Positions 29,001 to 49,531 of a stretch of DNA of 64,000 bases are shown here, one piece after another. Location of the stretch: assembly GCA_016192905.1 (NCBI GenBank), contig JACPTG010000003.1:1-64000 (forward strand). Direction: 5' to 3'. Position 1 is the stretch's first letter. Each line of letters begins with the position of its first letter. Source of the DNA: Candidatus Woesearchaeota archaeon. GTDB taxonomy: Archaea; Nanobdellota; Nanobdellia; Woesearchaeales; UBA10216. The position numbers and the translations under genes were made by a program. The notes beneath the pieces are model-generated. The model was given only the letters and a program-made list of their open reading frames with translations. It was not told the origin of the DNA and made no database searches.

Positions 29001-32000
29001 AACGTGAACGAGTCAAATGACACGATAATCCTGACAGCCGCAGGCGGCCTCTTCGGAACGCTGAAGGCGAATGACACAATAGTGGCTAATGGTGCGGTGA
29101 TAACCTTCACGTTTGACGGAAGCAACACAGGGCTGAACGCAAGCTTAAACTCCAGCGAGCTGGCAAAGCTGGACTCAGGCAGCACAGCCCTCATCCTCAA
29201 CGACTCAGGGCTGAATGGCGACGTGAAAGTGGACGATGCGCTATACACAGGAACCTATACAATATCTGCAGACAACAGCGTGGCTGATGGCACAAAGACA
29301 ATAGTCGCGACAGTCAACGACACAGCAGGCAACAGGTTCCACCCGGGTGTGAACATAACACTTGACAACACCAAGCCAAACGCCAGCGTCACGATAAGAA
29401 GCCTTGGGACAGTCGGCATAGGCAACGCTACCTCTGAATACACTGGCACAAGGGCTGTTATGCTCCTGCTGGGCTTCAACGACTCAGTAGGAATCCATGA
29501 CTGCCGCTATGCGAACGAGGACCTCGTATTCACGCCATTTGAGCCATGCTCAGGCCAAAAAGGCTGGATGCTCACAGAGGATGACGGCAACAAGACAGTC
29601 ATCTACGAGGTCAGGGATTATGCAGACAACATAAACCGGACGAATGACACAATACTCCTGAACAAGACAGGCGCAGGAATAGACGCAACACCGCCGCTCG
29701 CACCCACAATAACAGATGACGGAAAGTACACCAACACACAGCACATGCTCCACGCCCGCTGGAACAGCACAGACCCTGAAAACGAAATGCTCCACATACC
29801 CCTCCTCTTTGAATACAGGATTAGCTACAACAGCTCAAGCAGCTTCGTGAACGGCTCAGGCTTCCTCAGCATAGGCCCTGCCACTGAGATAAGCGTGTTC
29901 GGGCTAAGCCTGGACAACAACACCAACTACACATTTGAAATAAGGGCAATCAACTCAGCAGGCTCCAGGAGCGACACAGGCAAGTCAGACGGCATAATAG
30001 TTGACATAACGCCGCCATCAGCTCCGAACATACTCAGCAATAACAGCAACAACTGGACGTCCTCGGCAACACAGGTGTTCAACTGGAGCTCAAACGACAC
30101 GATATCCGGGGTAAAGGCCTACTCATACATACTGGACTCAAACCGCTCAACACTCCCCGACAGCGTAGAGGAGTCAGAGACAGAACACACGCTAATGCAG
30201 AGCGCTGCAAACACAGGCCAACAGCAGGCCCTGAAATACAATTCCACAGGAAACGCGTCCACAGTCTACATCAGCCTGAGCCAGAACATATCCGCGTTGG
30301 ACGTGCTAAGGGTTACCGTGTATGCAGTGGAAAGCCACGTTGATAGCCCAGACCTGATGAAGATGCAAGTATACGCTGTAAATTCCGTTCCAACCAGCTA
30401 CAACATGACAAACAGCAACATAACAACCATATCAAACGGCAGCCAGGACGTCAGCTTCAAGCCCTCCATTTCAGAAGCAACCGGAATCACCTTCACGATA
30501 ACCGCAAGCGCCGCAGCCACGGCAGGGCAATACTACGTCGCAGTGCAGGGCGTCTTTGACGATGACGACAACAGCTACAACCTCCTCATAGCCGGAAGCA
30601 ACAGCACAATAGACAACACAACCCAGGCATACGTCTGCCTTGAAAGAGCAAGCTGCACAAACCAGACAGCAAGCTTTGAGTACGCAATACAGATTGAGCA
30701 GAACGACGTGCGGGCAGACAATGTCTGGGACAGGACGTATGGCGTTGGAGACGGCACATTCTACTTCCACGTCAAGGCATTGGACAACGCAGGAACCTGG
30801 AGTGAAACAACAACGTACAACATAAGCGTGGACAGCAGCGCTCCAAGCACTCCGCAGATGGCGCAGCCAATAAAAGTGAGCAGCAACAGCACAGTGTACT
30901 TTGAATGGACGCAGAGCACAGACCCCCAGTCAGGAGTGGACAACTACTTCCTTGCGGTTGACAACGACTCAGACTTCAGCTCAACAGATTATTCTGCCTG
31001 GGTGGGCAACAGGACAAACAGGACAGTAACGGTAACAAACACCAGCACCACCTACTACGCAAGAGTCCACTCAAAGAACCAGGCAGGAGTCAACAGTTCC
31101 AGGTCAGACCAGGTCAGCACAATACTGGACATAACAGCGCCTGCGGTAACCTACATACGGCCAAGGGGGACCGTAGTCATGGGCTCAATAACAATAGCGG
31201 TGGAGACAAACGAGAGAGCCACATGCAAGTATGCAATAGGAAGCGGAGCTGCAAGCAACTTCACCTTCACAAACACGACATACCACGAGACAGAGGCATC
31301 CATATCAAACTCAGACACAATAACCGTAACGTGCAGCGACTCGGTCAACAACCAGGGAACAGCCAGCTCAGGCACAATAACAGTCTCAGCATTAACCCCT
31401 GACTCCATAACAATGACCCCCTCAACAAAGACAGTATTCACAGACGAGCCGACAAGGATAGACGCAACAGTGAAAAGCGGAAGCACTAACCTCGGCGGGC
31501 TTGCCACCAACAGCTTCAACCTGCTGCTTGACGGAATCAACCAGGACATATCTGTAACAGACAACGGCCAAGGCAACTACTCAATAATCTTCAGGTCGCC
31601 GAAGACCAACGGAAGCAGGAGCATGGTCGCCAGGATAAACAGCATCTCAAGCAGCGCGGGCACGTTAAGCGTGGAGCCGCTGTTCTTCACAGTCCAGTTC
31701 GTAAACAGCAGCCTATCGCCAATAACAACAAGCAGGATAACCTACTCGCTCATAAGCAACTTCAGCATAGGCATAGCGACCCAGAGCAGGACAGCTGGAG
31801 CCGCAAGCAGCAGCTCATACGGGCTTAACATGACAGGCAACGCAAGGGACAGCGACGTGATGATATTCGTCACAGCGCCAACAAGCGGCGTGGAGAAGAC
31901 AGAGGACCTGCTGAAGCAGCAGAAGTTCCTTGACACGACACAGCCAGCCTTCGCCAGGTCAAACAAGAAGGACACCTTTGTAGTGTTCACAGAACTCGGC

Positions 32001-32123
32001 TATGACAACGTGGCAATAGTGGGCAACAAGACCATAACCGCAGGCAGGCACAACATAATCATAGAGAACAAGGGCTTTGACACGACAATCAACAAGACAA
32101 AGCTTGAGGTGAGGGTAAGCTGA
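14022..32123 (+). CDS. Giant secreted LamG/Ig-like adhesin (about 6,030 aa)
   Basis: One uninterrupted 18-kb frame. A signal peptide core (LLIAAAFLLFFAVKTFA) leads into a LamG domain (about 14660-15290). Long Ig-like segments follow, then three more LamG regions (17880-19060, 20200-21320, 22490-23120), two with another domain inserted inside. The segments between LamG regions repeat a roughly 980-bp unit (VDTxxPTAS, then NITIDNTPP). Five roughly 860-bp units (PVILN, CADTSGGVN; 24105-27850), three roughly 600-bp units (ANDSVVADG; 27856-29680) and fibronectin-like domains follow. Sequons are very dense and Cys-containing Ig-like loops recur. No C-terminal anchor is visible. The TTG start is uncertain because the frame is open back to 13950. 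Surface binding or cell-cell contact is likely. Confidence 0.9.
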   Translation: MIAAAFLLFFAVKTFAVTVGCQFSTNCPTGNYTLLYVKNDTAGYLNAHAQLSTNGSYPYSLCCNTTVGLVNNSACAGNTTLLNFSAVTNAHVQAGNTSAQAYGNGQCISTQNATVLVYFIDTTCPVNYTAIASISNDTNAHIGDSAEYTRKVCLRLVLKPSNPFTSPTFSDNTSGRLNQNSTYINLTVTNETDIHTILVNWNGTNVTVDSPDLLLSYSLDLNATDSSRYGQHGSLDSGAACGNSVPGKIANACTFDGVNAAIGVASPYLNLTDRGTIMLWFNSSRIRHEEALLIKGQQDTFIAYGIDLVNTSGDTRVRAWIETTGFWGPEASVHTDRVSPNVWYHVTVTWNSTNMTIYINGLFKNMSKSATPYISKQNLQIGSGVTGWVGLLGQVDEVRIWNRTLSSSEINASYLASTGKSRDAYAYFANFTDLAEGNYTYYVWLNDSATGTNRTVDRNFIADFTAPTISGISATSNSSGRMWMAPNSTTAATIWFNAIGTEGDGQNVTIQVSAQDIMIGNLSGNTTFSEAPRSGAATPQMYISYTIEANSTNSSTLITLNDTAQNSPTPVITWANDSVDPLTIDDTRVNYSMQWYNAPVNITLNVSDVHSGANRSLWCVYTAGTAPCAPGTWNFNKTNWVQLNCSADSACSLIIRYYSVDNVTNNESGGANGGAYRDSNVVNIVIGSDINYTVANNSNISKGSFIRNSILWNTTVSDCTILASNITKGTFTRNSTHRYNCTIERSVVIDSNITSAVIRNSYIDPSVIVDSVVENSNITSGTVFYSRVENTTFCAPSIFTYEAIIRNETLISGLVTYNATNYYGPYPMRNICSGSKPEAAAGFTVYPTIVNNTGILMFKYVGYAVGMNISINKSELKTRLFNSTINDLILKDNGDLPDEVPSDGTYTANLTLDVSNNMTEGVKTLLAYIDDGLGNRWNVNVSLTLDNTSGNASVKINSNLGVTTSRNVLLDVGFNDTYGIDLCRFSNEERDFNPWEACTSSKAWRLSGQDGAKTVILQVRDRAGNINETNDTITLSTSEATTIIRPVKDSRLRGQADADVIAPFGTRTVAFKASNITHTNITLNGAFGESNDTTFQDGFRMQWNTSLLADGLYNLTAISWDNNNIYISNYTVMNLTIDNLPPQLSAPLPTTLQRGRSFIVNITVNEEAACKYDFSNATYSNMAYAMTEYDDTNNKHSAIATVPDDAYYTIYFSCTDQGGSANTATTGSFQVATGAIVMGYVQPTDDDKVFVNRNYTLINLSVINSTSVHTALIEFNGTNITLDSTNLLLAYDFNNNTIDRSRYGNNGVNERANCTTSDAGKFGYACNFDGLSSQVRTLTTGFSNSTGAVEVLINMNNVGAGNNYTIFATPSEISPNMSGLVGLWHFEQNSTAANGVKDSSIYGQDGNATSATYVTGRFGGGWDMNQAGSVDVQGRALPTGNQPRTVMFWVYLKSHANENQEFFIYYGTGSSSVFTLYQNPSDIRFDISGASTPSGIILNLSRWEHIAVTYASQKLKFYKNGRLFSEADTGNLATATNTNLQIGGSSLNAIMDEVAIFNRSLSEAEIRDLYLGGLSMHKYSNDLRFVAGNQTLAYTTAWTSGWNAVAGSYNETAAFLYVDGNEVNSTLTREPVFLGTNAHIGGMHNDSQNLTFNGSIDELRVWSRRLTYSELNVSPIRELGKQFSNLTGQKDGNYTYYAYVNDTAGNKAFSSSRTVIVDTVIPTASVLINSGLSNTTARLISLSITANDTNGGVQCRFSNEDRGFTAYETCSDSKSWSLSTGDGTKTVVLQARDKAGNVNETNDSITLTAASTTVIIRPTSNTILRQNNTIDITTPDATLWVTYNITNASNRALSFAPNGSLGQTLNDTSPGDGFSATWMTTGFADGTYNFTATSYGAEGQLSSDTETNITIDNTPPSLTSPQPTTVQGSRVFYVNVTTNEQSTCKYDFSNVSYSSMASSMTASSTTTYGAITTVPTDGYYTIYYACQDKAGNTNTATTGSFQTVQTGVSITYTTPTDDDKVFVNRNYAYINLSISNSTSVSTTTINWNGTNYSLYETSTGLVGLWHLDNSTADSSVMGNNGTNNGADCSTNTITQVGKGCSFDGTNDYLNTTVAGFGVNQGTIMLWTTPNFAGNDNQSRYLLDARNLTIFIQEGTTNYVTNPSFEVSTGGWTSQNTPYRVNNVSFIGNYSLMTKGQGSGSGHYITFTIKDSGTYTLSMYAKMEDGSDPTSRNIAVVFQPSGYGFSWSGKEYVGNGWYRLSYTATLTAGSVEVGMLNYYGGADKTGQQLYIDGVQLEPVDHATGYADGTLGPGYVWSATAHSSNTTRAANTLIARLQNATYRQASANISIWQQGQTHHIAATYDNTTLSLYVDGVLAHNASGNWSPTFSNGLFIGTNQTSTLGREIFFNGTIDEVAIYNKTLTTEEINRTYMLQKDLHSSVKDGHGLYYANITNLTNGNYTYSVYANDSANNKAQTATRTVIVDTINPTASILINSGLSNTTARLVSLSITANDTNGGLLCRFANEDRGFTAWETCSDAKAWSLSTGDGLKQVVLQARDRAGNINETNDTITLTAASTTVIIRPVSNSILRQNNTIDVTTPDATLWVMYNITNASNRALSFAPNGSLGQTLNDTSPGDGFSATWMTTGFTDGTYNLTTTSYAAEGQLSTDTETNITIDNTPPQLSNPQPTTTQGSRVFYVNITTNEQSTCKYDFSNVSYSSMAGSMTASSTTTYGAITTVPTDGYYTIYYACQDKAGNTNTATTGSIQAVQTGVSIAYTSPTDDDRVFVNRNYSYVNLSIANSTSIDTISVSWNGTNVTIDDPSLVLALDFNNNTNDRSRYGNNGNDVNGANCLNTIRGRFGTACSYNGLTTYVNISNPRMFDFNGKFTVQAWVNLTSYSTGILSAIVGHEATQTCGGSNNGWALVIGTGGKAGLSINNGSTYSGATGTTSLNNNTWYQITGVFDGVDALIYVNGVLETNASIGGVGIPGSCTPLWVGAEKVGTQDRYFNGTIDEVRIWNRSLSYSEINASYTAELGRFFANQTFQKDGNYSYYAYANDTAGNKVFSSTRTVIVDTVIPTASILINSGLSNTTARLISLSITANDTNGGLLCRFANEDRGFTAWETCSDAKAWSLSTGDGTKTVVLQARDRAGNVNETNDSITYSATGPTTILRPLSSSAIRLNQTLDVAVPDAALWVTYNITNASNRALSYSVNGTPNQLTNDTSPGDGWSQTIVTTTIGDGVFNLTASSYSIEGLISSDTETNITIDNTVPQLSSPLPTTTQFSRTFSVNVTTTEKAACHFDFINATYDSMLGRMSAANTTSFRGVASVATDGTYAIYFACQDAAGNTNTATTGAFFVNSTAPVVTASSPSGFVNAPANLSVTTTGVATCHYSQSDVNFTQETVMPVTNGTSHQANASALYVEGRNTFFIRCAETATGGNAMLSSITVAFTYDTRPPVITGLSPANNSFTNSRGISFSLRDTTSFVNRSSIMVWFNNSATGSFSQASNCTENGLGGYDCSFVEVNLTAGLANNFTVLANDSALNLLQAVINFTYDTAGPGIVISSPLSGAVHNTKSLYLNVTLGEPGSCRFARTNTSYESMPSGFANSSSTAFSGNILADEGSNTYYVSCRDRAGNEGSNSTTFQVNTTAPVILNIGPNGTINNPGINLSLTTDDTAYCSYSQSDINYSSMTAFTVTGAAQHQVNVSSLYRQGVNVFFVRCADTSGGVNAMSGSAVAIFTYDTSPPAIASVVPSNGSRVNTKIVSFSLRDSTTGVNQSTVFTRYNSSVSAAFSSANNCTANGLGGFDCSFTEVNITAGLNNITLLANDSAGNSLIQNITFTYDTTGPAITINSPVSGSVFTSRSLFFNVSLDEAGFCRYAQTNVSFDSMPASFANVSTTAFTARIYAEDGSNTYYIRCKDIAGNENNAYTTFQVNTTPPVILNIGPNGTIKDPLNLSVTTDEVEYCAYSQSDVNFSSMTAFTNTGAGTHQTNVSSLYRQGVNVFFVRCADTSGGVNAMASSAIAVFTYDTSPPVIASVVPSNGSRTNSKSVSFSLRDSTTGVNQSTVFTRYNSSVSAAFSSANNCTANGLGGYDCSFTEVNITAGLNNITILANDSAGNSLVQNITFTYDTTGPAITIDSPVSGAVFNTRNTYLNISLGEAGLCRFAQTNTSYDNMPATLSNTSGTAFTTNLLLAEGSNTYYVHCKDIAGNENNGYTTVTANTTAPVILNLAPNGTLSNPGINVSVTTDDVAYCSYSQSDINYSSMTAFTVTGAVVHQANLSGLYRQGVNTIFIRCADTSGGVNAMSSSAIVQFTYDTSAPVIANVAPVNNSRVNAKTVSFSLRDSTTGVNLSTVWMRFNNSLTGSFSQAANCTANGLGGYDCSFVEVNITAGLNNITVLANDSAGNSMVHNVNFTYDITGPAITIDSPVSGSVFTTRNLFLNVSLGEAGFCRYANTNVSYDSMAATFPNVSAAAFTANVQAVEGGNAFYVHCKDAAGNENNGFTTFQVNTSFPVILNLAPNGSISNPGINVSVTTDDVAYCAYSQSDVNFSSMTAFTNTGAGTHQVNVSSLYRQGTNIFFIRCADTSGGVNPMQSSAVISFYYDSVPPVGAFTVNDSVVKDGDYITFRFEGTETGINVTLPASELSRLDFNGTRFVLNDSGTSTDSLPNDGIYAGVYRIAPDNNVSDGVKTLTLTVNDSLNNTKYFTANVTLDNTKPNASIQVNFGATTTSSRSAGLNLVLNDSNGIDACRFSNEDRSFDDWETCTGTKGWVVTSGFGVKTVVVQVRDQAGNVNETNDTINLVSGAGLFGVLTANDSVVADGNVIKFIFEGSNTGLNASFNSSEIGKLDFNSTELGLDDSGQNGDFLVGDGLYTGVYTIAANNNVSDGVKTLTLTVNDTAANYFYPTINITLDNTPPNGSVSVNGGATTSITRSVALELLFNDSVGIEACRFANENREFNDWEACTGTKGWLVSAGFGTKTVVFQTRDKAGNVNESNDTIILTAAGGLFGTLKANDTIVANGAVITFTFDGSNTGLNASLNSSELAKLDSGSTALILNDSGLNGDVKVDDALYTGTYTISADNSVADGTKTIVATVNDTAGNRFHPGVNITLDNTKPNASVTIRSLGTVGIGNATSEYTGTRAVMLLLGFNDSVGIHDCRYANEDLVFTPFEPCSGQKGWMLTEDDGNKTVIYEVRDYADNINRTNDTILLNKTGAGIDATPPLAPTITDDGKYTNTQHMLHARWNSTDPENEMLHIPLLFEYRISYNSSSSFVNGSGFLSIGPATEISVFGLSLDNNTNYTFEIRAINSAGSRSDTGKSDGIIVDITPPSAPNILSNNSNNWTSSATQVFNWSSNDTISGVKAYSYILDSNRSTLPDSVEESETEHTLMQSAANTGQQQALKYNSTGNASTVYISLSQNISALDVLRVTVYAVESHVDSPDLMKMQVYAVNSVPTSYNMTNSNITTISNGSQDVSFKPSISEATGITFTITASAAATAGQYYVAVQGVFDDDDNSYNLLIAGSNSTIDNTTQAYVCLERASCTNQTASFEYAIQIEQNDVRADNVWDRTYGVGDGTFYFHVKALDNAGTWSETTTYNISVDSSAPSTPQMAQPIKVSSNSTVYFEWTQSTDPQSGVDNYFLAVDNDSDFSSTDYSAWVGNRTNRTVTVTNTSTTYYARVHSKNQAGVNSSRSDQVSTILDITAPAVTYIRPRGTVVMGSITIAVETNERATCKYAIGSGAASNFTFTNTTYHETEASISNSDTITVTCSDSVNNQGTASSGTITVSALTPDSITMTPSTKTVFTDEPTRIDATVKSGSTNLGGLATNSFNLLLDGINQDISVTDNGQGNYSIIFRSPKTNGSRSMVARINSISSSAGTLSVEPLFFTVQFVNSSLSPITTSRITYSLISNFSIGIATQSRTAGAASSSSYGLNMTGNARDSDVMIFVTAPTSGVEKTEDLLKQQKFLDTTQPAFARSNKKDTFVVFTELGYDNVAIVGNKTITAGRHNIIIENKGFDTTINKTKLEVRVS
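18130..18747 (+). other. LamG domain nested inside another LamG domain
   Basis: A complete LamG (LVGLWHFEQ to MDEVAIFNRSLSEAEIRDLY) interrupts an outer LamG after NYTIFATPSEIS. The outer fold resumes at LRFVAGNQTLAYTT and ends with IDELRVWSRRL. By eye the insert is more AT-rich than its flanks. Confidence 0.65.
19155..20135 (+). repeat. Interdomain repeat of the giant gene (copy 2)
   Basis: About 980 bp from TVIVDTVIPTASV to the PTDDDKVFVNRNY block. It is highly similar at DNA level to 21457-22435 and less so to about 16850-17800 and 23230-24090. The repeats flank the variable LamG segments. Confidence 0.75.
20488..21002 (+). other. Carbohydrate-binding-like module inserted in a LamG domain
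   Basis: VTNPSFEVSTGGWTS to YIDGVQLEPVDHATGYADGT has the look of the jelly-roll modules found in phage and bacterial surface proteins. It splits the LamG of 20200-21320 after NLTIFIQEGTTN, a position equivalent to the nested insertion at 18130. Confidence 0.55.
21457..22435 (+). repeat. Interdomain repeat of the giant gene (copy 3)
   Basis: Near-copy of 19155-20135, including TLWVxYNITNASNRALSF and QSTCKYDFSNVSYSSM. Long identical runs make it a good substrate for homologous recombination. Confidence 0.75.
24105..27850 (+). repeat. Five tandem roughly 860-bp units in the giant gene
   Basis: Units begin near 24108, 24973, 25837, 26697 and 27562, the last partial. Each encodes two Ig-like modules with conserved Cys, the segments SLYRQGVNVFFVRCADTSGG and NCTANGLGGYDCSF, and variable loops. 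Confidence 0.8.
27856..29680 (+). repeat. Three tandem roughly 600-bp units in the giant gene
   Basis: Units begin near 27856, 28456 and 29059, with FEG/FDG motifs, DNNVSDGVKTLTLTVNDS and a CRFANE module. Confidence 0.75.
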
Positions 32124-32632: not shown

Positions 32633-32796
32633 CCGCATCAGAGTGCGGGATTCGTCAGGGTCTGTTCCTCAACAGAAGTCATGTAAGGAAAGGAGTATAT
32701 AAAGGTTTCGGAGATGCACACAAAAAAAAACAGGAGGGGGCGAGCAGGATAATAACTAAACTTCACAGATGGGGTAAAGAGAAGATGGTTACAGAT

Positions 32797-32925
32797 CTAA
32801 GTATGTCTTCTCACAAAGTCGCGCACTACCTTCCTGAACAAAGGGTCTTTCATAGCCTCATCTATCTCAGCTATCAGTTCCTCACCCGAGATTTTGCGCC
32901 TGATTTCCTTCAATCTTGCAGCCAT
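32797..32925 (-). CDS. 42-residue mini-antitoxin
   Basis: MAARLKEIRRKISGEELIAE, then DEAMKDPLFRKVVRDFVRRH, nearly the same as the proteins at 2251 and 34967. A TATA element (ctttaagtat) lies about 25 nt upstream. The plus-strand gene facing its 3' end is the unknown 32123 protein, 165 nt away, in the slot where other copies face a PIN gene. Confidence 0.65.
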   Translation of the reverse strand: MAARLKEIRRKISGEELIAEIDEAMKDPLFRKVVRDFVRRHT

Positions 32926-33048
32926 AAACTCACCTATACCAGCGGCATACTTAAAGCTTACGCAAGCAGGTCTCGTAAGCCAAGCATGATTCCGCACACA
33001 GACATCATTAGGATGCTAGAATTTAAGAAGGCCATCAGCAGAGGTGAC

Positions 33049-33189
33049 TCACTTGGATCTGCCTAACAAGTACCTCGTAACCTCATCCAGGGCCTTTACA
33101 TACCCGGGATCCTGCTTGTGCTGCTCGACTGCCCTAACAAAGGGTTCAACCCATTTTACTTCATCCTTTTTAACCAAAGCCTTCATCAT
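33049..33189 (-). CDS. 46-residue antitoxin-like protein
   Basis: MMKALVKKDEVKWVEPFVRA, then DPGYVKALDEVTRYLLGRSK. A TATA element (gatttaaatag) lies about 25 nt upstream. Same size, position and DP-helix layout as the other mini-antitoxins but divergent. A plus-strand frame facing it (LEFKKAISRGDS) may be the last bit of a lost toxin. Confidence 0.5.
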   Translation of the reverse strand: MMKALVKKDEVKWVEPFVRAVEQHKQDPGYVKALDEVTRYLLGRSK

Positions 33190-33229
33190 GGCAAGAAGCA
33201 GGCCAACACACTATTTAAATCTTTTCAAA

Positions 33230-33280
33230 ATTGACACAAAATTAAACATAGAAAGGTTGAGTAAGAAGACCCGTCAATCC
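33230..33280 (+). repeat. 51-bp repeat, second copy of 32576-32626
   Basis: Orphan copy of the 3' end of the 32123 gene, between a mini-antitoxin promoter and the DUF5615 gene. Confidence 0.85.
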
Positions 33281-33294
33281 ATAATTACTGAGAG

Positions 33295-33633
33295 CTATAG
33301 CGGCCGTATCCTCACCCTGCCCTCTTCCACAACAATGAACCTGCCTTGGGCCCTTGCCAGCATGTTTTTAGACAACCTAAACAGTTCCTCAGGGTCTGTG
33401 GTCAGTGTCCTGAACAGTATAACGCCTTTTGAAGGTTTCTCAAGCCTGAAAATCAGCTCGCCAAAGTCCTTATCACCGGTTAATATTATGTGGTTTTCTT
33501 TTTCTGCGAACGCTAGAATTTTATCGTCAGGAGCGCTGCGCATAACGTCACCTGCAAACAAAGATTCATATCCATGGCTGTTAAGGACATCTGAGAACCT
33601 TTTGCCCAAATCCTCATCAACTAGAAACGCCAT
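33295..33633 (-). CDS. DUF5615 PIN-like toxin
   Basis: 112 residues. FLVDEDLGKRFSDVLNSHG and IILTGDKDFGELIF carry the acidic motifs of the family, and the end VVEEGRVRIRPL is the segment that survives in the collapsed pair at 7725. It overlaps the DUF433 gene by 17 nt. Predicted RNA-cleaving toxin. Confidence 0.85.
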   Translation of the reverse strand: MAFLVDEDLGKRFSDVLNSHGYESLFAGDVMRSAPDDKILAFAEKENHIILTGDKDFGELIFRLEKPSKGVILFRTLTTDPEELFRLSKNMLARAQGRFIVVEEGRVRIRPL

Positions 33634-33868
33634 CGACTATCGCAGGAAATATCTCCTCTCCAGCTACAAGGCTTTGCGCGTAAAAGAGGGCGGCTCTAAT
33701 ATCCTCCTTGGTGATGTAAGGATAATCCTCAAGTATCTCATCAAAGGTCATGCCCTGGGCTACGCGGTGGACGATAGCCTCCACAGTGATACGGGTACCC
33801 TTAATCACAGGCTTTCCCACCATAACCTTTGGGTCAACCACTATCCGCTTCATGAAGTCCTTTTCCAT
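33617..33868 (-). CDS. DUF433 antitoxin
   Basis: 83 residues. VVDPKVMVGKPVIKGTRITV is the DUF433 core and EDYPYITKEDIRAALFYAQ the HTH-like helices. A TATA element (ctttaaatat) lies about 25-30 nt upstream of the ATG at 33868. It precedes and overlaps its toxin. Confidence 0.85.
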   Translation of the reverse strand: MEKDFMKRIVVDPKVMVGKPVIKGTRITVEAIVHRVAQGMTFDEILEDYPYITKEDIRAALFYAQSLVAGEEIFPAIVDGVSS

Positions 33869-34003
33869 AATTCCATGGATGGCAGGGGCATATTTAAAGC
33901 TTATGGCTCAGATGCCTGGTCAACAAGCCGCATTCACACCATCCGCAAATACTTCAGAAAGTTTAAATCCAACCTCAGCAGTAAAATGGCAGGGGCAAAA
34001 CAG

Positions 34004-34135
34004 GTGAAAGGAAAGGCATCAGCCGCATTACCGGCAGTATTAGTCCTGATGGCAGCCCAGGCAGCAGACCCCGGCCACGCAGCCAGCTGCAGCAAGGCTC
34101 CAGTCGGTCACCCACTCGTCAGGAGGCTCAAATGA
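34004..34135 (+). CDS. Signal-peptide mini-ORF overlapping a PIN gene start
   Basis: GTG start, 43 residues: KGKASAALPAVLVLMAAQA, then ADPGHAAS and a tail ending HPLVRRLK. Signal peptide and ADPGHAAS match the fibre genes at 2907 and 35198. The TGA overlaps the ATG of the PIN gene (ATGA). The upstream leader also matches the fibre-gene leader at 35150-35200. Confidence 0.55.
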   Translation: MKGKASAALPAVLVLMAAQAADPGHAASCSKAPVGHPLVRRLK

Positions 34136-34263
34136 GGCTCCTTCTGGACACCAACATATATACCGCCCTCCTGAAAGACGCCGGGGCGAAGCAGCTATTA
34201 CTAAATGCGACATCTGCTGCCAATGTGACAAGCAAAAACTTAAATGAAGAACTAAAAGCTCAC
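34132..34263 (+). pseudogene. Truncated PIN-domain toxin
   Basis: MRLLLDTNIYTALLKDAGAK is the PIN first motif. Homology ends after about 44 residues at the stop of the convergent mini-antitoxin (34260). The frame stays open but continues as antisense of that gene. Confidence 0.7.
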
Positions 34264-34397
34264 CTGCGGGACAGCAGCCTGTCAAGCGCTTCCAACTCTT
34301 CCAGGTATTCTGCACTCCTCTTATGCCTTTCCACAGCCCTAAACACAGCCTCAAGCCTGCTCACAAACAGACCTTTTCCAATTGACACTGCCTTCAT
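34260..34397 (-). CDS. 45-residue antitoxin-like protein convergent with PIN
   Basis: MKAVSIGKGLFVSRLEAVFR, then a charged helix (RHKRSAEYLEELEALDRLL). It is a different sequence from the DP-x-FR family but has the same size and tail-to-tail position. A ggtttaaaag element about 35 nt upstream could be its TATA box. Confidence 0.5.
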   Translation of the reverse strand: MKAVSIGKGLFVSRLEAVFRAVERHKRSAEYLEELEALDRLLSRR

Positions 34398-34446
34398 CAG
34401 GCAAAGACATAACCTCCACACTTTTAAACCTTTCCACCAAGGGGGC

Positions 34447-34530
34447 ATACTGGTCATTGCAATACTGGCCCTCCTTCCAGCAGCAACGTCAGCAGACCCG
34501 GGGCGTCCTTGGGAGGTGAGGCTACATTGA
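34447..34530 (+). pseudogene. Signal-peptide fragment before a PIN gene
   Basis: ILVIAILALLPAATSADPGR, then PWEVRLH, ends in a TGA overlapping the TTG of the PIN gene (TTGA). It lacks an obvious start codon. The end VRL plus overlapping TTG is the same as at 2040-2057. Confidence 0.55.
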
Positions 34531-34970
34531 CAAAGGCAATCCTTGATACAAATATTTACGGAAAAATGGTGGAGCTCGGGCATTCAGGCCTTGTCTTATC
34601 TAAACAGGATACTATTAGGGTCTATGGCAGCGAGTTGATAAGGCAGGAGCTTCGGCGAATCAGCAGCGAACAAACCATTCAGTACGAGGATAAGATAAGA
34701 AAAATCAGGATAGTTCTTCTGTCCATTTATGATTCCCTGGTAGGAGACAGGAATCTCAGCTTAACCCCTGCGATTGGCGCCCTGGCCGAGCAATATTATG
34801 AGCTTTACAAAAGACTTGAAGGAAAGGAAAAACATGAACAAATCATAAACGACTTCATAATAGTGGCCACAGCTACGATTCACACTCTGGAGGTTGTTTA
34901 TTCGGATGACGAAAAAACCATGTGCTCAAAGCGAGCCTTATTTATCAGCCTCCTAAGGAGGGGAGTTTAA
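34527..34970 (+). CDS. PIN-domain ribonuclease toxin (intact)
   Basis: 147 residues from a TTG with GGGAGGTGAG upstream. TKAILDTNIYGKMVE holds the first Asp, VYGSELIRQELRR the Glu region, IINDFIIVATATIH the third motif and VVYSDDEKTM the last acidic residues. It appears full length. Its 3' end overlaps the convergent mini-antitoxin by 4 nt. Confidence 0.8.
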   Translation: MTKAILDTNIYGKMVELGHSGLVLSKQDTIRVYGSELIRQELRRISSEQTIQYEDKIRKIRIVLLSIYDSLVGDRNLSLTPAIGALAEQYYELYKRLEGKEKHEQIINDFIIVATATIHTLEVVYSDDEKTMCSKRALFISLLRRGV

Positions 34971-35095
34971 GTATGTCTCCTTACAAAGTCCCGGATGATT
35001 TTCCGGCATATAGGATCCTTCATTACCTCAGTGGCCTCAGCCACCAGTTCCTCGCTGGATATTACCCGCCTTATTTCCTTCAATTTCGCAACCAT
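34967..35095 (-). CDS. 42-residue mini-antitoxin, convergent with intact PIN
   Basis: MVAKLKEIRRVISSEELVAE is identical to the start of the 2251 protein, while the second half (EVMKDPICRKIIRDFVRRH) differs. The toxin-facing half therefore varies while the promoter-proximal half is constant. The start lies in the 144-bp repeat. Confidence 0.7.
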   Translation of the reverse strand: MVAKLKEIRRVISSEELVAEATEVMKDPICRKIIRDFVRRHT

Positions 35096-35180
35096 AAAGA
35101 GCAAAAGGTGAGTTCTATATTTAAGCTTTTTGCAAGGCAATTCGTCATGTTTATATTCAACCTCAGCAGTAAACTGGCAG
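35037..35180. repeat. 144-bp promoter/antitoxin block, second copy
   Basis: Matches 2321-2464 with one difference seen by eye. Here the plus-strand gene behind it is a fibre gene rather than a PIN gene. Confidence 0.9.
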
Positions 35181-35197
35181 GAAAAGGGGTAAAACAG

Positions 35198-36879
35198 GTG
35201 AAAGGAAACGCATCAGCCGCAATACTGGCATTCGCAATACTCATAGCCCTCCTTCCGACAGCATTGGCAGCAGACCCGGGCCACCCTGCCAGCAGCATAG
35301 GACAGGCGACGTTCGAGACAGGCAACTTCAGCTTCACCGGGAACGTGAGCATAGGCGGAGGCGGCAAGCTCCTGCTCTTCTTTGACAACTCAACAGGCAG
35401 CCTTGGACTCGGCACAGTCATACCGCCAAGCAGCCCAACAGGCTACACCCCAGTCATAGTGCTGAGGGGAGACGCCACCGCAATCCTGTTCAACGACACA
35501 GACGCAGCCTCAGACACTTGGGCAGTGGCAGGCAATGACGGCTTTTCAATAAGGGACGAGAACGACCAAGCGACAAGGCTCTTCATAACAGACAGCGGCG
35601 ATGTCGGCATCGGCACAGTCAGCCCAATAGCGAAGTTCCACGTTGAGGGTGGCAATGCAACCATAAACGGCAACTTCAGCGTTGGCGGTGGCGGGACTCT
35701 GAGGCTGTTCGTGGATAACAGCAGCGGGAATGTCGGGATTGGAACTACAACACCAGCATCAAAACTGGTCATTGTAGATACTACCAATTCTGACACGGCA
35801 CAAACAATATTAAATCTTACGAGGTATCGTAGTATAATGCTGCTGGGCCTTTCATCTATTCAAGGATTGCAGGAGTTCAAACCGATGGCGTTCAAGATGA
35901 TGATGCAGATTTAAGAATTAGCACTATGAAGAATGGAGTTTTAAGTGAAGATATCCGGATAAGTGCTGGCAACGTCGGCATCGGGACGACGAGCCCGGCA
36001 AGGTTATTGGATATAAAAGGTGCTGGTGCGGGGGGTAATCAACAAGTACTAATTAACGCAAGCGACAACGGTGATGCTGGTCTGAGGTTTGAAACTCTTG
36101 GAGATGCTTGGCATATCGGTAAATCAACTTCTGGTAATTTCTTCTTTTATGATACAGATGGAACGGCTGACACGAGGATGGTTATTCAGAATAGCACCGG
36201 CAACGTCGGCATCGGGAGTGGGGAAACTAACCCTGCGACAACTCTGGAAGTGAACGGGACAATAAGGGCTATACGCACTATCAGCATACTTAACACCATT
36301 GATGTTGGCAGCGGTGCAACCATAACAAGCGGCGGGACTTACGGCGGCATGAACATCACTACAGACAGCGGGTTAACCTCAGGCCCGGCATTCTCAGTCA
36401 TAACATACCTCAACCCAGGAGGCATCTATAATGCTGCGCTGACAGTGACGGCACCGGGAAAGGTCGCTGTTTATTCCCTTGCTGCTGCGACTGCAAACAC
36501 CCTCTGTTATGACACGACAACTGTAAATGGGATGAACACACTTAGCACCTGCTCATCCAGCAGGAGATACAAGGAGGATATTAAGCCTTTAATCGTGGAT
36601 AAGAGTAAGGTGTTCCAGCTTCAGCCAGTCTCTTTCAAGTGGAAGGGTAGGAATGAGTCCGGCGTTGGTTTGATTGCTGAGGATGTTGAACCTGTAATCC
36701 CTGAAATCGTCGGATATTATGACGGCAGGATTGAAAGCGTGGAGTACAAGCTACTGACAGTCTACCTTCTTGACATTGTGAAGAAGCAGGATAAGACAAT
36801 ACAGGAACTTGAGCAGAAAAACAGGCAGGTAGAGAGTCGGCTCGCCAGGCTGGAAGGCCAATGCGCAAAGCTCTGCTAA
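35198..36879 (+). pseudogene. Fibre gene with S74 chaperone, split by a frameshift
   Basis: A GTG (in-frame ATG at 35147) starts a signal peptide (ILAFAILIALLPTALA, ADPGH) and a stalk with FSVGGGGTLRLFVDNSSGN and NVGIGTT repeats. The frame shifts at about 35834 and stops at 35914. The remaining frame is open from about 35836 to 36879 and encodes more repeats plus the S74 intramolecular chaperone (SSRRYKEDIKP, GVGLIAEDVEPVIPE) and a coiled-coil tail ending LARLEGQCAKLC. The shift sits exactly at the end of a roughly 165-bp block shared with 3835-3995 of the first fibre gene. Either a recombination error or programmed; a base-call error is possible. Confidence 0.75.
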
Positions 36880-37024
36880 GGGTCTGCAGCCGGACAGAGC
36901 CAAAGCATGCCAGGCTAAGCTGCGCCAGCTGCGCACAGTCTTGCCCTGCATTTTTCAGGCATAAAGTGAACTTGCAATAAGTATTTAAACCCTGTCTGCT
37001 TCTGCCGTGAACTGGTGAAGTGAA
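36880..37024 (+). repeat. Intergenic island element, copy 1, with shared promoter
   Basis: It follows the S74 stop and contains the ggtctgcagccg... segment, then cttgcaataagtatttaaac and tgccgtgaactggtgaagtg just before the RelB ATG. The agtatttaaa part is a TATA box. Related copies lie between most TA modules up to 50.7 kb. Confidence 0.75.
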
Positions 37025-37201
37025 ATGCCACAGGTAACGTTGGAGACAATCCATAAGGACTTGGAACTTATCAAAAATGAAATAAAACATATTAGAGGGA
37101 AGATAGCAGATGTTGATGCTGTCTTAACTGACGATGATATGGAATCGTTAAATGAAGCTGAAGACGATTTAAGGAAAGGCAGGACAAAGAAATTGGCCTA
37201 A
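37025..37201 (+). CDS. RelB-like antitoxin
   Basis: 58 residues: MPQVTLETIHKDLELIKNEI, then ADVDAVLTDDDMESLNEAE and a basic end. A helical protein one nt before a RelE gene. A near-identical copy lies at 49354, and the first 10 residues are also used by the antitoxin at 50719. Driven by the island promoter. Confidence 0.78.
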   Translation: MPQVTLETIHKDLELIKNEIKHIRGKIADVDAVLTDDDMESLNEAEDDLRKGRTKKLA

Positions 37202-37202
37202 A

Positions 37203-37460
37203 ATGTATTCTGTAGACCTGTCTCAAAAGTCCCAGAAGTTTTTGGATAAGCTTGATAAGCGCATGAGGGAGAGAATTGAAGAGAGGCTCAGGAATCTCTC
37301 GGAAAACCAGGTCCCATCGGATGCCAGGTTTATCTGCAGGGACAATAATGACAAAGTCTTCAGGTACAGAATAGGCGACTTTAGGGCGTTATATAAAATA
37401 AAGTTGCAGGATAAGATTGTTTTGATTACAAAAATAGATAAAAGACCAAGAGTGTATTAA
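37203..37460 (+). CDS. RelE-family toxin
   Basis: 85 residues. MYSVDLSQKSQKFLDKLDKR, then DKVFRYRIGDFRALYKIK and KIDKRPRVY are the beta-sheet core and C-terminal Arg/Tyr residues typical of RelE/ParE mRNA interferases. Intact. Near-identical to the gene at 49532. Confidence 0.88.
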   Translation: MYSVDLSQKSQKFLDKLDKRMRERIEERLRNLSENQVPSDARFICRDNNDKVFRYRIGDFRALYKIKLQDKIVLITKIDKRPRVY

Positions 37461-37463
37461 AAA

Positions 37464-37721
37464 CCTGCAATTGCTTTCTGCTGCAACCCCTGCAATTGGG
37501 CCATGCGGCTCGCAGGCTGATGCGCAAAGCCCTGCTAAGGGTCTGCAGCCGAACAGAGCCAAAGCATGTCCGGTTAAGCTGCGCAAAGTGGCGCGTAGCC
37601 ATGCCCGCATTTTTCCAGCCACAGCCTGTTTCTGAAGTATCCAGGGCTTTTTGGCGGCGGAATGTGGGGCAATTACAGAGAGCAGATAATTATTTAAATC
37701 TAGGCATGTTGCGATGGCAAA
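37464..37721 (+). repeat. Intergenic island element, copy 2
   Basis: It contains ctgctgcaacccctgcaa, a fossil of the S74 tail (ggctcgcaggctgatgcgcaaag), tctgcagccgaacagagcc, a T-rich gggctttttgg segment and a TATA box (ttatttaaatc) before 37722. Confidence 0.7.
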
Positions 37722-37925
37722 ATGGAAACTTTACAGATAAAAAAATCCGATTTCAGCAAAATTCTGGAAACTGCCGAGCTGCTGATTAGTGAAGTGGAGC
37801 AGGCGCTTTCTCAGGATGATATAGTTAAGGCAAGGATGGGAGATATAAAGGCCGGGAGGGTAAATGGCAAGAGTGAACAGGAACTTGATGAATACTTAAA
37901 AAGGAGAGGAGTCAAAATTGTCTGA
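37722..37925 (+). CDS. Antitoxin-like protein upstream of broken RelE
   Basis: 67 residues: METLQIKKSDFSKILETAEL, then KARMGDIKAGRVNGKSEQEL and a C-terminal EYLKRRGVKIV. The helical layout and the overlap with a RelE frame suggest a RelB-type antitoxin. Intact while its toxin is not. Confidence 0.6.
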   Translation: METLQIKKSDFSKILETAELLISEVEQALSQDDIVKARMGDIKAGRVNGKSEQELDEYLKRRGVKIV

Positions 37926-38214
37926 ATGGGTAATAAGAGCATCCGGATTTCTTTAAGGATTTACACAATCTCGGCAACAAGGACCTGGAGATTTTTTACA
38001 AGAAAAAGAACAAAATAAAGGAGAAGCCCATCAGGCAGAAACATCTTAGCGGCGGCCAGAATTGCTATAGGGAGCCAATAACCGGTAATATTAGGCTCGT
38101 GTATTTTGTGGAGGGGAAAACTTTTGGCTGCTTACAGTAGGCCGCCATGACAAGTCCTATGAGGAATTCAAAAAAAGATTATATACATTGCGAATAAGGT
38201 ACGGATTGAAATAA
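37918..38214 (+). pseudogene. RelE toxin broken by two frameshifts
   Basis: A TTG at 37918 starts LSEWVIR. A shift is then needed to reach EHPDFFKDLHNLGNKDLEIF and PIRQKHLSGGQNCYREPITG, and another near 38130 to reach LLTVGRHDKSYEEFKKRLY. Together they form a complete RelE-like fold. Two lesions in one gene argue for decay. Confidence 0.7.
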
Positions 38215-38461
38215 AACCTGCAATACAGGCAATTTCTCTCTGCTGCAACCCCGGCAGGGGGACAGATGGCTGAGGGGGCAATTGCGGGGAATATCGGGCC
38301 ACGCTTCGCAAAGTGCGCATAGGCATGTCCCGAATGTTTGGGATAAATGCGGAATCTGAAGCATCCGGGGCTTTTTTCCGGTGCGGAATCTGGGGCTCCT
38401 AAATGAGCTCGCAATAAGTATTTAAACCCCGCCTGCTTATGCCGTGAATTGGTGAAGCATT
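38215..38461 (+). repeat. Intergenic island element, copy 3, with shared promoter
   Basis: Contains ctctgctgcaaccccggcag, fossil gaatatcgggccacg, gaagcatccggggctttttt, and ctcgcaataagtatttaaac plus tgccgtgaattggtgaag before the HicB ATG. The same promoter thus drives HicBA here and RelBE at 37025. Confidence 0.75.
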
Positions 38462-38740
38462 ATGACTAAACAAATATTGATAAACGTTATTGTTAAGGAA
38501 GAGGACAAGGGATATTCAGTCATATGCCCCGAACTTAATGTGGCGAGCCAGGGCGAGACCTTTGAGGAAGGCATCTCCAACATTAAAGAAGCTGTGGAAT
38601 TGTATATTGAAAGCGCAGAGCAGCTTGGAATTTTTGATGAAGTTCTGGAGCAGCTGGGCATCTCAAAAGAAGACTTTGGGAAAGGGAGAATAATTCCGAG
38701 ATTGGTCACTGCAAATGTTCCAATAGAGATTGCAGTTTAG
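38462..38740 (+). CDS. hicB: HicB-family antitoxin
   Basis: 92 residues. INVIVKEEDKGYSVICPELN and SQGETFEEGISNIKEAVELY are the degraded RNase-H-like HicB fold. It precedes HicA by 3 nt. Confidence 0.88.
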   Translation: MTKQILINVIVKEEDKGYSVICPELNVASQGETFEEGISNIKEAVELYIESAEQLGIFDEVLEQLGISKEDFGKGRIIPRLVTANVPIEIAV

Positions 38741-38743
38741 AAA

Positions 38744-38923
38744 ATGAAACTGCCTGTTGTTTCCGGCGCGCAAGTTTTAAAATTGCTTCAGAAGGAAGGG
38801 TTCTCCGTTACAAGGCAGAGAGGCTCGCATGTTTCGCTTCACAAAAAATTCCCTGATGGGACTATGGCTTTGGTTGTTGTGCCGTTAAAAAGCGAGATAA
38901 AAGAGTTTATTGGTAAAATCTGA
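38744..38923 (+). CDS. hicA: HicA-family toxin, shortened
   Basis: 59 residues. MKLPVVSGAQVLKLLQKEGF and RQRGSHVSL carry the HicA dsRBD-like fold with the catalytic His. The C-terminus ends VPLKSEIKEFIGKI and lacks the KGTLLEIIRQSGL helix present in the gene at 50224, so activity is doubtful. Confidence 0.8.
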   Translation: MKLPVVSGAQVLKLLQKEGFSVTRQRGSHVSLHKKFPDGTMALVVVPLKSEIKEFIGKI

Positions 38924-38929
38924 AGAGTC

Positions 38930-39010
38930 ATGACGGCAATTTCTTTCTGCTGCAACCCCCGGCAGGGGGACTGGATGACAGACGGTTAAGCGTGCAAGGG
39001 AAGTGAAATA
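38930..39010 (+). repeat. Intergenic island element, copy 4 (5' part)
   Basis: ggcaatttctttctgctgca, a short hairpin cccccggcaggggg, and gaagtgaaatatcgggcaac, which here runs into a real fibre fragment. Confidence 0.65.
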
Positions 39011-39409
39011 TCGGGCAACCTAGGCATCGGGACGACGAGTCCAACGCACCTTTTGAACGTAAAAGGAAATGCTAATGTGTCAGGAAGTCTCCAAGTGGGA
39101 AGTGCTACAGGTGGCATATCAGGGATAGATTATACTTTAGCAAATAACGGAGATCAGAATCTGTGTTGTGATACTGGTAAGCGGGGATTAGTTATTCTAT
39201 ATGACAGGACAAACGACCAGACGTGTGTATTTGCCCTAGGCAGTTCTGGATACATAACAGAGATTGCTGATCCCAATGGCGTTTGCTCAACAACATCCGG
39301 AACAGCAAGCAACTCAAATTATTACCATTATTCCGCGGGGGATTTCCACTTGGAAAACAAGAGGGGAGTTACAGTCACTTATTCAATTTTTCAAATAGGA
39401 GGGCCTTGA
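39011..39409 (+). pseudogene. Fibre-protein C-terminal fragment without a start
   Basis: The frame begins SGNLGIGTTSPTHLLNVKGN and ends with a compact head (NGDQNLCCDTGKRGLVILYD, VTYSIFQIGG). No signal peptide or promoter precedes it. It shows what the shorter SGNVGIG fossils in the other intergenic elements derive from. An internal ATG at 39053 could start a small protein. Confidence 0.65.
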
Positions 39410-39410
39410 G

Positions 39411-39700
39411 CTACTGATAGTTAACAGCCTAATGGATTATAAGCCAGGCTAACTCAGGAAGGCCAATGCCACATCCTGCCAGATTTGTTGATGATAGCTA
39501 ACCTGTTAGCGGATAACCGAGCCCAAGCCTGCCACGCTTCGCAAAGTGCACATGGCCCCGTCCCGCATTTTTCAGCCACACCCTTTTTCTGAAGTATCAG
39601 GGGCATGAAACCCGGGCAAAATGTGTGCAAAAATGGAATTTAAAATAATGAAGAAATAAAGCAAGTTATAAATAGTTGAAGGTAATTCTAGAAGTAGGTG
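39411..39700 (+). repeat. Intergenic island element, copy 5
   Basis: Holds cacgcttcgcaaagtgca and gcatttttcagccacaccct, tctgaagtatcaggggca, then an AT-rich promoter stretch (aagttataaatag) before the VapBC pair. Confidence 0.6.
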
Positions 39701-39709
39701 GTGGGAAGA

Positions 39710-39904
39710 ATGGAAGTTTTGGAAGAGTTGGAAAGTAAGATAAGATTGGCAGGGATTACTCCTATAAAACAAATAGCAAGTATTAGATTAGGAACTAAGA
39801 CGCCGGCTGCATGGGATAGTTTGGCAAAGATAGGGAAAAAAATAAGCGATGGTTGGAAATTAAAGGAATCTAGCTGGCAGATTGTTTCAGAAAGCAGGAG
39901 ATAA
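39710..39904 (+). CDS. VapB-like antitoxin
   Basis: 64 residues from ATG 39710, after a GGTGGTGGG ribosome-binding site. EVLEELESKIRLAGITPIKQ, then GWKLKESSWQIVSESR. It ends 1 nt before the PIN gene. TATA box at about 39665. Confidence 0.65.
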   Translation: MEVLEELESKIRLAGITPIKQIASIRLGTKTPAAWDSLAKIGKKISDGWKLKESSWQIVSESRR

Positions 39905-39905
39905 G

Positions 39906-40328
39906 ATGTATTGCTTGGATGCAAGTGTAATTACAAACTCAGTTATTGAAAGGGAAGAGTATCACAAAGACAGCAAGGCTTTGTTGTTAAAAATCAGGAA
40001 TGAGAATATTCCGGTGGTGCTGCCTGAAATAATAGTGCCTGAGGTCGCGTCCGCTCTTTCTAGAGGAACAGGAAATGCCAAACTTTCTCTGCAATTTGCA
40101 GCCGAAATAAGAAAAATCCCCAACTTTGTTTTTATTCCGATTGATGCTGAAATTTCTAATCTCGCAGCAAAAATTGCGGCAGAAAATCAAATGAGAGGTG
40201 CAGATTCAATTTATACTGCAATTGCCTTGGTATTTAATGTTAGGTTGGTCACACTCGATACTGAACAGCTTAAAAAGTCCAAAAGCAGTGTTAATTCGGC
40301 AACGCCTTTTGAGGAGTTAAGAGAGTAG
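39906..40328 (+). CDS. vapC: VapC PIN-domain toxin
   Basis: 140 residues. MYCLDASVITNSVI (first Asp), LPEIIVPEVASAL (Glu), GADSIYTAIALVFNVRLVTL and the following D complete the PIN active site. Normal length. Confidence 0.9.
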   Translation: MYCLDASVITNSVIEREEYHKDSKALLLKIRNENIPVVLPEIIVPEVASALSRGTGNAKLSLQFAAEIRKIPNFVFIPIDAEISNLAAKIAAENQMRGADSIYTAIALVFNVRLVTLDTEQLKKSKSSVNSATPFEELRE

Positions 40329-40329
40329 G

Positions 40330-40640
40330 AGAGGCTATCATCCTGCAACCCCCGGCAGGGGGACTGGGGGCAAAGGGGCTAAAGGGACAGGGGAAGTGAA
40401 ATATCGGGCGACCCCGGCATTGGCGCCATGCGGCCCGCCAGGCTGGAAGGCTGATACGCCAGCCAATGCTAAGGGTCGGCTGCGGAACAGGGCCAACGCC
40501 AGCCACTCCGTGCTACGCCAGCTGCTCATAGCCATTCCCGGCTTTTTTCAGCCACAGCCTGATTTCTGAAGAATCCGGGGCTTTTTCGGTGCGGAATGCG
40601 GGGCATGGAAATAACCGAAAAATATAAATAGTATACTCCG
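40330..40640 (+). repeat. Intergenic island element, copy 6
   Basis: Complete-looking copy: cctgcaacccccggcagggg, fossil gaaatatcgggcgaccccgg, fossil S74 tail ggcccgccaggctggaaggc, ggtcggctgcggaacaggg, gaagaatccggggctttttc and tgcggaatgcggggca. Confidence 0.75.
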
Positions 40641-40666
40641 TAGTAGACTACTTACAGGTAGACTAT

Positions 40667-42040
40667 ATGTTCCTAAATAGAAAAGCTGAGTTGCAGGAGC
40701 TTGAGAAACTCTACGGGGAAAGCAAGCCAAAGCTGGTGATCCTCTATGGCAGGAGAAGGGTTGGCAAAACCGCCCTTCTTTGGGAATTCGCCAAAAAGAA
40801 CAAGGGGCTGTATCTTCTGGGAAGGCAGGAGTCTGAGGCAGAGCAATTGAGAAGATTCAGCGAGGAAATAGCGGAGTTTTTCAATGACTCCTTTTTGAAG
40901 GTGAACCCGCTTTCAGGCTGGGACGCTTTCTTCACCTATCTGGGAGAGAAGCTGTCAAAAAGCAAGGTTCCGCTGTTTTTTGACGAGTTTCCATATATGG
41001 TGGAATCCAACAAATCCCTGCCTTCAATCCTGCAGGACTACTGGGACAATACGTTTTCAAAAACAAGCGCTTTCATAATTCTGTGCGGCTCTTCGATATC
41101 AATGATGGAGGGCCTTGCAGGATACAAAAGCCCTCTTTACGGAAGAAGGACAGAACAGATAATTCTTGAGCCGCTTACCTTTTTCCAGGCAGCTGAATTT
41201 TTCAAGGGCATGAGCAGGGAGGATGCCGTGACGTTCTATTCTGTGCTGGGCGGAAGTCCGGCCTATCTGCTGGAATTCAACCTGGGAAAGAATCTGCTGG
41301 ACAACATAAAAGATAACATGCTCCAGCGGGCAAAGTTCCTCTACAATGACGTCATGTTTGTTCTGAGGGAAGAATTACATGAGCCAAGGAATTATTTCTC
41401 AATCCTTCATTCTGTTTCTAAAGGCAATGCAAAAATAGGCGAGATAGTCAATGACACAGGCCTTCCAAAGGGCACAGTGTCAAAATACCTGTCTGTGCTG
41501 TCTGACCTGCGTATCGTGGAAAGAAGAGTTCCAATCACAGAAAAAAGGATGCAAAACTCCAGAAAAGGGCTGTATTTCATTAAGGACAACTACTTCAATT
41601 TCTGGTTCAGGTTCGTATTCCAGAATATATCGTACATAGAGCAGGGCAGGATAGACAAGCTTGTGGATGAGCGCATCAAGCCTGAATTAAACGCCTATAT
41701 CGGAAGGCAGTTTGAAAATATGGCTTTTCAGTGGCTGCAAAAAAAATTCCAGTCGTATCTATGGGGAAGGTGGTGGCATGGGGATAAGGAGTTGGATTGT
41801 GTGGGGATAGACGAAAAAAACAGGAAAATAGCCTTCGTGGAAGTCAAATGGTCTTCTTTAACAGATGCGGACATCAATTCTGTGTTTGCCGAATTAAAAG
41901 GCAAATCACAATTTGTCAGTTGGGAAAGTGAAGGGCGGGCGGAGGAATTCATGATTATAGCAAAAGAAGCCAAGGAAAAATCAAATTTCAGGAATGTTTT
42001 TGATTTGGGCGACTTTAACCTCGGCAATGATTCTGGATGA
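40667..42040 (+). CDS. Archaeal ATPase (ATPase_2 plus DUF234)
   Basis: 457 residues. Walker A GRRRVGKT at residues 28-35, Walker B PLFFDEFPYMV, sensor CGSSISMME, then a winged helix (LPKGTVSKYLSVLSDLRIV) and the DUF234 region with a nuclease-like end (WWHGDKELDCVGID, AFVEVKW). A family expanded in archaea with unclear function. A TATA box (aaaatataaatag) lies upstream. A paralogue is at 46234. Confidence 0.9.
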   Translation: MFLNRKAELQELEKLYGESKPKLVILYGRRRVGKTALLWEFAKKNKGLYLLGRQESEAEQLRRFSEEIAEFFNDSFLKVNPLSGWDAFFTYLGEKLSKSKVPLFFDEFPYMVESNKSLPSILQDYWDNTFSKTSAFIILCGSSISMMEGLAGYKSPLYGRRTEQIILEPLTFFQAAEFFKGMSREDAVTFYSVLGGSPAYLLEFNLGKNLLDNIKDNMLQRAKFLYNDVMFVLREELHEPRNYFSILHSVSKGNAKIGEIVNDTGLPKGTVSKYLSVLSDLRIVERRVPITEKRMQNSRKGLYFIKDNYFNFWFRFVFQNISYIEQGRIDKLVDERIKPELNAYIGRQFENMAFQWLQKKFQSYLWGRWWHGDKELDCVGIDEKNRKIAFVEVKWSSLTDADINSVFAELKGKSQFVSWESEGRAEEFMIIAKEAKEKSNFRNVFDLGDFNLGNDSG

Positions 42041-42255
42041 GGGGCAATACCTGACAGGGCATATAGACCTTATACAGATAAGGAATGGGGCGATTTAAAT
42101 AATGGACTACAAGCCCTCTGCAGCCAAGGAGCGGCCTGTTGACCAGCTTGTCATTTGTGCTCTATTACTATGAGTTTTTCCCGCTGCGTGCCGTTTACCA
42201 GAAGCGGTAGCAAGTTTTATATAATAGTGAGCATCAATAACCTATAGGGATGTAA
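42041..42255 (+). other. Intergenic region with promoter and a degraded repeat
   Basis: About 70 bp (cctgttgaccagcttg... to ccgtttaccagaag) resemble 43330-43405 and may be gene remnants. A TATA box (gttttatataat) at about 42213-42224 serves the DUF433 gene. Confidence 0.45.
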
Positions 42256-42540
42256 ATGGCAAAAGTACTACAATCAAAAATCGTAAAAGACAAAATTATG
42301 TCTGGAAGCCCAAGAATAGCTGGCACTAGAATAAGGGTAAGGGATGTTGTGGAAAAGCATATTGTATTAGGCTACTCACCAGAAGATATAGCTGAAGCTT
42401 TCAATCTCTCCTTAGCAGCAGTGTATGATGCTCTTTCTTACTATTATGAATGCACAGGGGAGATTCAGGAAGAGATAAAGAAAGATAAAGAATTTGTGGA
42501 GAAATTCAGGAAAGATTTTAAACATGAAATTCTTAGCTGA
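42256..42540 (+). CDS. DUF433 antitoxin
   Basis: 94 residues. KDKIMSGSPRIAGTRIRVRD is the DUF433 core, and GYSPEDIAEAFNLSLAAVYD the HTH. It overlaps the toxin by 17 nt. Confidence 0.88.
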   Translation: MAKVLQSKIVKDKIMSGSPRIAGTRIRVRDVVEKHIVLGYSPEDIAEAFNLSLAAVYDALSYYYECTGEIQEEIKKDKEFVEKFRKDFKHEILS

Positions 42541-44823: not shown

Positions 44824-44918
44824 CTAAAAGGCAACTCTACTTTAACTTTAGCAGGGTTAAAATTGAACTGGATGTTAATATTAGTAAAGTTTAAATATAT
44901 GGCATCTATTGATGGTGC

Positions 44919-47637: not shown

Positions 47638-47639
47638 TA

Positions 47640-49530: not shown

Positions 49531-49531
49531 A

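Follow-up and report, generated by a model that had tools for sequence, protein, structure and literature searches.

Why does the reading frame of a putative fibre gene break where a block that it shares with a second fibre gene ends? The window, that is, the whole stretch of DNA analysed (bases 1-64000 of contig C6, in a genome of 1.43 Mb and six contigs), carries both genes on the forward strand, to which all features of the two genes given below also belong. Gene 1 (2907-5717) is an intact, paralogous fibre gene of 936 aa without a Peptidase_S74 (S74) domain, as defined by its open reading frame and a Pfam search. Gene 2 (35147-36879, start codon inferred) is a modular gene, apparently for a secreted fibre, with a single frameshift; it comprises an N-terminal leader (~35147-35290), repeat units separated by NVGIGT linkers and a C-terminal S74 chaperone domain. 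The genome encodes TFIIB, confined to archaea in the control set, and a 16S rRNA that fits the archaeal model, whose control also responds to bacteria; its small size and the number of families in its order suggest a DPANN lineage. A preliminary description had placed a recombination junction at the break and raised the possibility of a switchable fibre in its OFF state.

Position of the frame break and extent of the shared block

Frame A of gene 2 extends from 34922 to 35914 and closes with a stop codon at 35912-35914. The frame that continues the gene stays open over 35833-36879 (348 aa) and has a TAG codon directly before it, at 35830-35832; homology in this downstream frame begins at ~35836. 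An undamaged ancestor could not have carried the TAG in frame, and the indel must therefore lie at or after 35830, which confines the break to the interval 35830-35838. In the sequence as given, the frame thus does change at the block end, as first described. The downstream open reading frame (35926-36879) contains the S74 domain (Pfam score 45.7 bits against a cut-off of 22; recovered from the DNA at the same place with 49.2 bits) and begins without a leader; export of the S74 part as a separate protein would thus not be expected.

Self-comparison of the window aligned 3816-3998 in gene 1 with 35651-35833 in gene 2 (96% over 183 nt). Within this alignment, 141 bp (3858-3998 and 35693-35833) are free of any difference, and identity is lost from the base right after CGTAGT. 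The close match and its end point are as initially reported, the start proposed there (35667) being approximate. The two copies lie 32 kb apart in direct-repeat orientation. About 54 bp of the identical block (35693-35746) are linker, GNFSVGGGGTLRLFVDNSSGNVGIGT, which recurs at 3057-3133 and at C1:11357-11436. The specific shared module is thus the 87 bp at 35747-35833, identical to 3912-3998.

A single repeat unit spans the break

The repeat unit that contains the break runs from one NVGIGT linker to the next (35733-35975). The distance between the two motifs is 242 nt, which corresponds to ~81 codons, is not divisible by 3 and falls inside the spread of unit lengths in other archaeal genomes (median 85.5). 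Base composition is nearly the same on the two sides of the break: the first half of the unit (35747-35833) has a GC content of 38% and the second half (35834-35965), which is read in the other frame, 39%, compared with 56-67% in the flanking gene and linker sequence. Intact open frames of three relatives (G078, G019 and G306) align over the junction, the best of them, G078, being 46% identical across positions 11-92 of 92.

We compared the unit with a profile derived from 59 repeat units found in other archaeal genomes. With the two halves joined by an X over the break, gene 2 scored 57.7 bits over profile positions 1-91; the halves alone scored 25.3 and 32.0 bits, and the gene 1 version 25.8 bits. 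The 59 units had been selected for similarity to the right half of the gene 2 unit. Conservation is low in the middle of the unit, which leaves the homology over the junction weak there; for both reasons, the profile result supports continuity and does not prove it. Together, GC content, unit length, the frames of the relatives and the profile score support the reading of 35733-35965 as a single repeat unit whose two sides belong together. The sequence that follows the block had been called unrelated; it is instead the other half of this unit.

A version of the unit that is in frame at the DNA level was absent from 59 relatives, which gave linker matches only, and a scan of genome contigs for a close in-frame relative returned one linker-level match, in a Bacteroidetes MAG.

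The mosaic joint lies in gene 1

The other copy of the block has a different context. In gene 1, the truncated unit copy (3858-3998) is fused in frame, at 3996-4001, to a module that starts there and has a counterpart in a third paralogue, on contig C1: the sequence rightward of 3996 matches C1:11073-10627 with 84.6% identity. In the C1 paralogue, the corresponding LQVEGGN piece is preceded by an ordinary linker, NVGIGTTNPVSR. In gene 1, the matching LHVEGGN is preceded by RYRS, which is the middle of the AT-rich unit, and neither the unit's second half nor the linker after it is present. The joint (3998/3999) keeps the reading frame and has microhomology of at most two or three bases. Since the context of the joint is abnormal in gene 1 and normal in the C1 paralogue, gene 1 appears to be the derived recombinant, and gene 2 would hold the natural continuation of the unit plus a small indel. 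The direction of transfer is read from context, as the 59 relatives contain no in-frame counterpart at the DNA level. A recombination joint at the end of the block is therefore real, as had been proposed; its place, however, is gene 1, where the frame is kept, and not gene 2.

This bears directly on an out-of-frame crossover or gene conversion, in which gene 2 would have received 3858-3998 from gene 1 and non-homologous repair would have sealed the tract end with loss of the frame. That the frame breaks just where the shared block ends speaks for such an exchange, and the 141 bp without a difference would make it recent. However, homologous conversion stops where homology stops and would leave the frame of a normally continuing unit unchanged; in addition, the gene 2 halves resemble one unit and it is gene 1 that has the abnormal context. 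We regard an exchange of this kind as improbable. As the halves of gene 2 form one normal unit, no out-of-frame crossover is needed and a small indel suffices.

Origin of the frame break

We consider it probable that gene 2 is a recently frameshifted member of the fibre family and that gene 1 separately obtained a truncated copy of the unit. The gene 2 unit would be complete apart from a small indel at ~35830-35838, with a net loss of one base or a net gain of two. Translation would stop at 35914, which would leave the fibre without its C-terminal S74 chaperone. In a separate event, the truncated unit copy would have entered gene 1 and, at 3998/3999, been fused to an older module without loss of frame. 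The 348 open codons and the above-cut-off S74 domain downstream of the break argue for one lesion, and a young one; the lesion thus seems recent, and the product of gene 2 is presumably non-functional. Leader fragments of the fibre family occur at 1977-2051, 33962-34087, C1:12159-12302 and C1:12958-13086, and repeat or tail fragments at 39011-39097, 47654-47710 and 49003-49065; they are accompanied by repeats of 3' ends and intergenic sequence. Such leader-only and tail-only pieces, scattered nearby and on C1, indicate that the loss of members is ordinary here, and the family may change through birth, death and module shuffling.

Assembly or polishing error is a less likely source of the break, though one that keeps some weight. 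Reads from gene 1 would have piled onto gene 2 over the identical 141 bp, and clipping of their ends would have created a false indel at the block edge. The break does coincide with the edge of an exact 141-bp repeat, a length near that of typical short reads, and both frames of gene 2 are otherwise intact to 36879; mis-mapped reads can give false indels at the end of an exact repeat, which is why we retain this explanation as a minor one. It is weakened by the frameshift-free 18.1-kb open reading frame at 14022-32123, which bounds the rate of indel errors at less than about 1 per 6 kb, by a site without a homopolymer and by the sequence of gene 1 past the block, which does not account for the letters found in gene 2.

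The one oddity is that the gene 2 lesion and the gene 1 breakpoint lie within ~5 bp of each other. By a rough estimate, independent events would coincide so closely within the 220-bp unit in ~5% of cases. The two may therefore share a cause, or may reflect how the assembly behaves where an exact repeat ends. One such cause would be a hot spot at which the archaeon cuts and rejoins its fibre units, with the break in gene 2 as a by-product of the event in gene 1 and the scattered fragments as donors for fibre variation; we give this only a slight chance. The frameshift itself carries little weight: either gene 2 has recently become a pseudogene or the assembly has slipped, in a family with high turnover.

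No signature of a switch

Phase variation or programmed frameshifting would make gene 2 an OFF state, or would have the ribosome change frame at the site. In favour of this, each of the two frames is open and the S74 domain past the break is preserved intact. Around the break (35820-35845), however, we found neither a simple-sequence tract nor a homopolymer, and no heptamer of the form X XXY YYZ. The RNA 3' of the site folds less stably than shuffled sequences (z = +1.9), which further argues against programmed frameshifting. An inversion switch was rejected in turn: neither copy of the block has notable inverted repeats around it, and the whole genome contains no match to a serine resolvase or invertase. 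Tyrosine recombinase matches number three and are confined to C1 and C2. The proposal of a switchable fibre in its OFF state thus finds no support, and we judge a switch of any of these kinds highly improbable.

Invertible and shufflon-type fibre switches (Gin/Cin and Rci) act on variable fibre parts with identical blocks. The fibre genes described here likewise combine variable parts with identical blocks, but have neither an invertase nor inverted sites, and the copies are direct repeats 32 kb apart.

Relationship of the fibre proteins to MAT and phage fibres

Among solved structures, MAT fibres of Bdellovibrio were the sole matches: Bd2133 (8OND) and the 8OJN group. For 8OND, the E-values were 5.7e-9 for the first part of gene 2, 1.6e-6 for gene 1 and 1.1e-6 for the C1 paralogue, individual stretches being weak; the alignments to 8OND and 8OJN pass through the NVGIGT motif, and the matches fall mostly in the repeat linkers. 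The MAT fibres of Bdellovibrio bacteriovorus comprise subgroups with and without S74 and have a capping-loop consensus (PMC10769870). They are trimeric β-prism/β-helix surface fibres with a conserved, β-rich domain of ~130 aa after the signal peptide, and MAT-like fibres have been described for prey recognition in a predatory bacterium.

The archaeal proteins share several of these traits. They appear to be secreted repeat proteins with a motif like the capping loop V-G-x-x-x-x-P-x-x-x-L, here NVGIGTTSPxxKL, as in the MAT fibres 8OND and 8OJN/8ONB/8ONC. There are six NVGIGTxxPxxx motifs in gene 1 and five in the C1 paralogue; the residue after VG is I and not G or N, so that the fit to the published V-G-G/N-x-x-x-P-x-x-x-L consensus is approximate. 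Fibres with and without a C-terminal S74 chaperone are also both present here: the domain is found in gene 2 and is absent from gene 1 and the C1 paralogue in both Pfam and DNA-level searches. The catalytic motif S-D-x-x-x-K reads SSRRYK in gene 2, with Ser and Lys kept and Asp changed to Ser. Near-identical fibre parts and swapped modules are a further point in common. Unlike the MAT fibres of the predatory bacterium, the putative fibres described here are those of an archaeon. Membership in the MAT superfamily is plausible. The word archaea does not occur in the main text of PMC10769870, and a literature search found no paper on S74 fibres in DPANN archaea.

The S74 domain, an intramolecular chaperone of the endosialidase type, also invites comparison with phage fibres and spikes that carry it. 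Gene 2 resembles these in its above-cut-off S74 domain and in a shaft built from repeats, and the family, like phage fibres (PMC10684548), exhibits module shuffling. Unlike phage fibres, it has a signal-peptide-like leader, with ...ADPGHPASSIG common to family members within the genome, and a chromosomal location among toxin-antitoxin genes, and no phage structural genes were noticed near gene 2. A phage origin was considered and rejected: the unit had no match in 50,697 phage records, viral contigs gave a linker match only, and a search for exact copies of the junction word found none.

In the phylum, S74 domains occur in 43 of 371 sampled genomes. Together with the fibres, this suggests candidate attachment fibres in archaea that possibly depend on contact with a partner. 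That an archaeon with a small genome has MAT-like repeat fibres, some with S74 and some lacking it, is, although a weak lead, of more interest than the frameshift. The fibre genes at 2907-5717, 35147-36879 and L025 9184-11634 are possible contact fibres of this DPANN-type archaeon.

Genomic neighbourhood

Gene 2 lies in an island (32700-51000) of toxin-antitoxin-type genes (PIN, ParE, HicA/HicB-like and DUF433/DUF5615) and of ATPase_2/DUF234 and DUF4143 genes, interspersed with fibre-gene fragments. Rfam gave no match in the window. Between the two fibre genes, 14022-32123 is a single open reading frame of 6033 aa (TTG start listed) that seems to encode a giant surface protein; long direct repeats recur inside it at spacings of 864 nt and 2.3 kb. 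Copies with 88-92% identity lie upstream of it at 11132-11492, 12402-12762 and 13956-14143 and have a common start, GGTGTAACT...AAGCAAAAAGAG. Downstream of gene 2, 36968-37470 and 49297-49799 are direct repeats (97% over 503 bp) that carry a ParE-type toxin gene and a small gene before it, and 50662-51143 matches C1:3334-2853 (95% over 482 bp). Both of these long repeat pairs share a promoter-like leader, TATTTAAA, and we read them as recent duplications.
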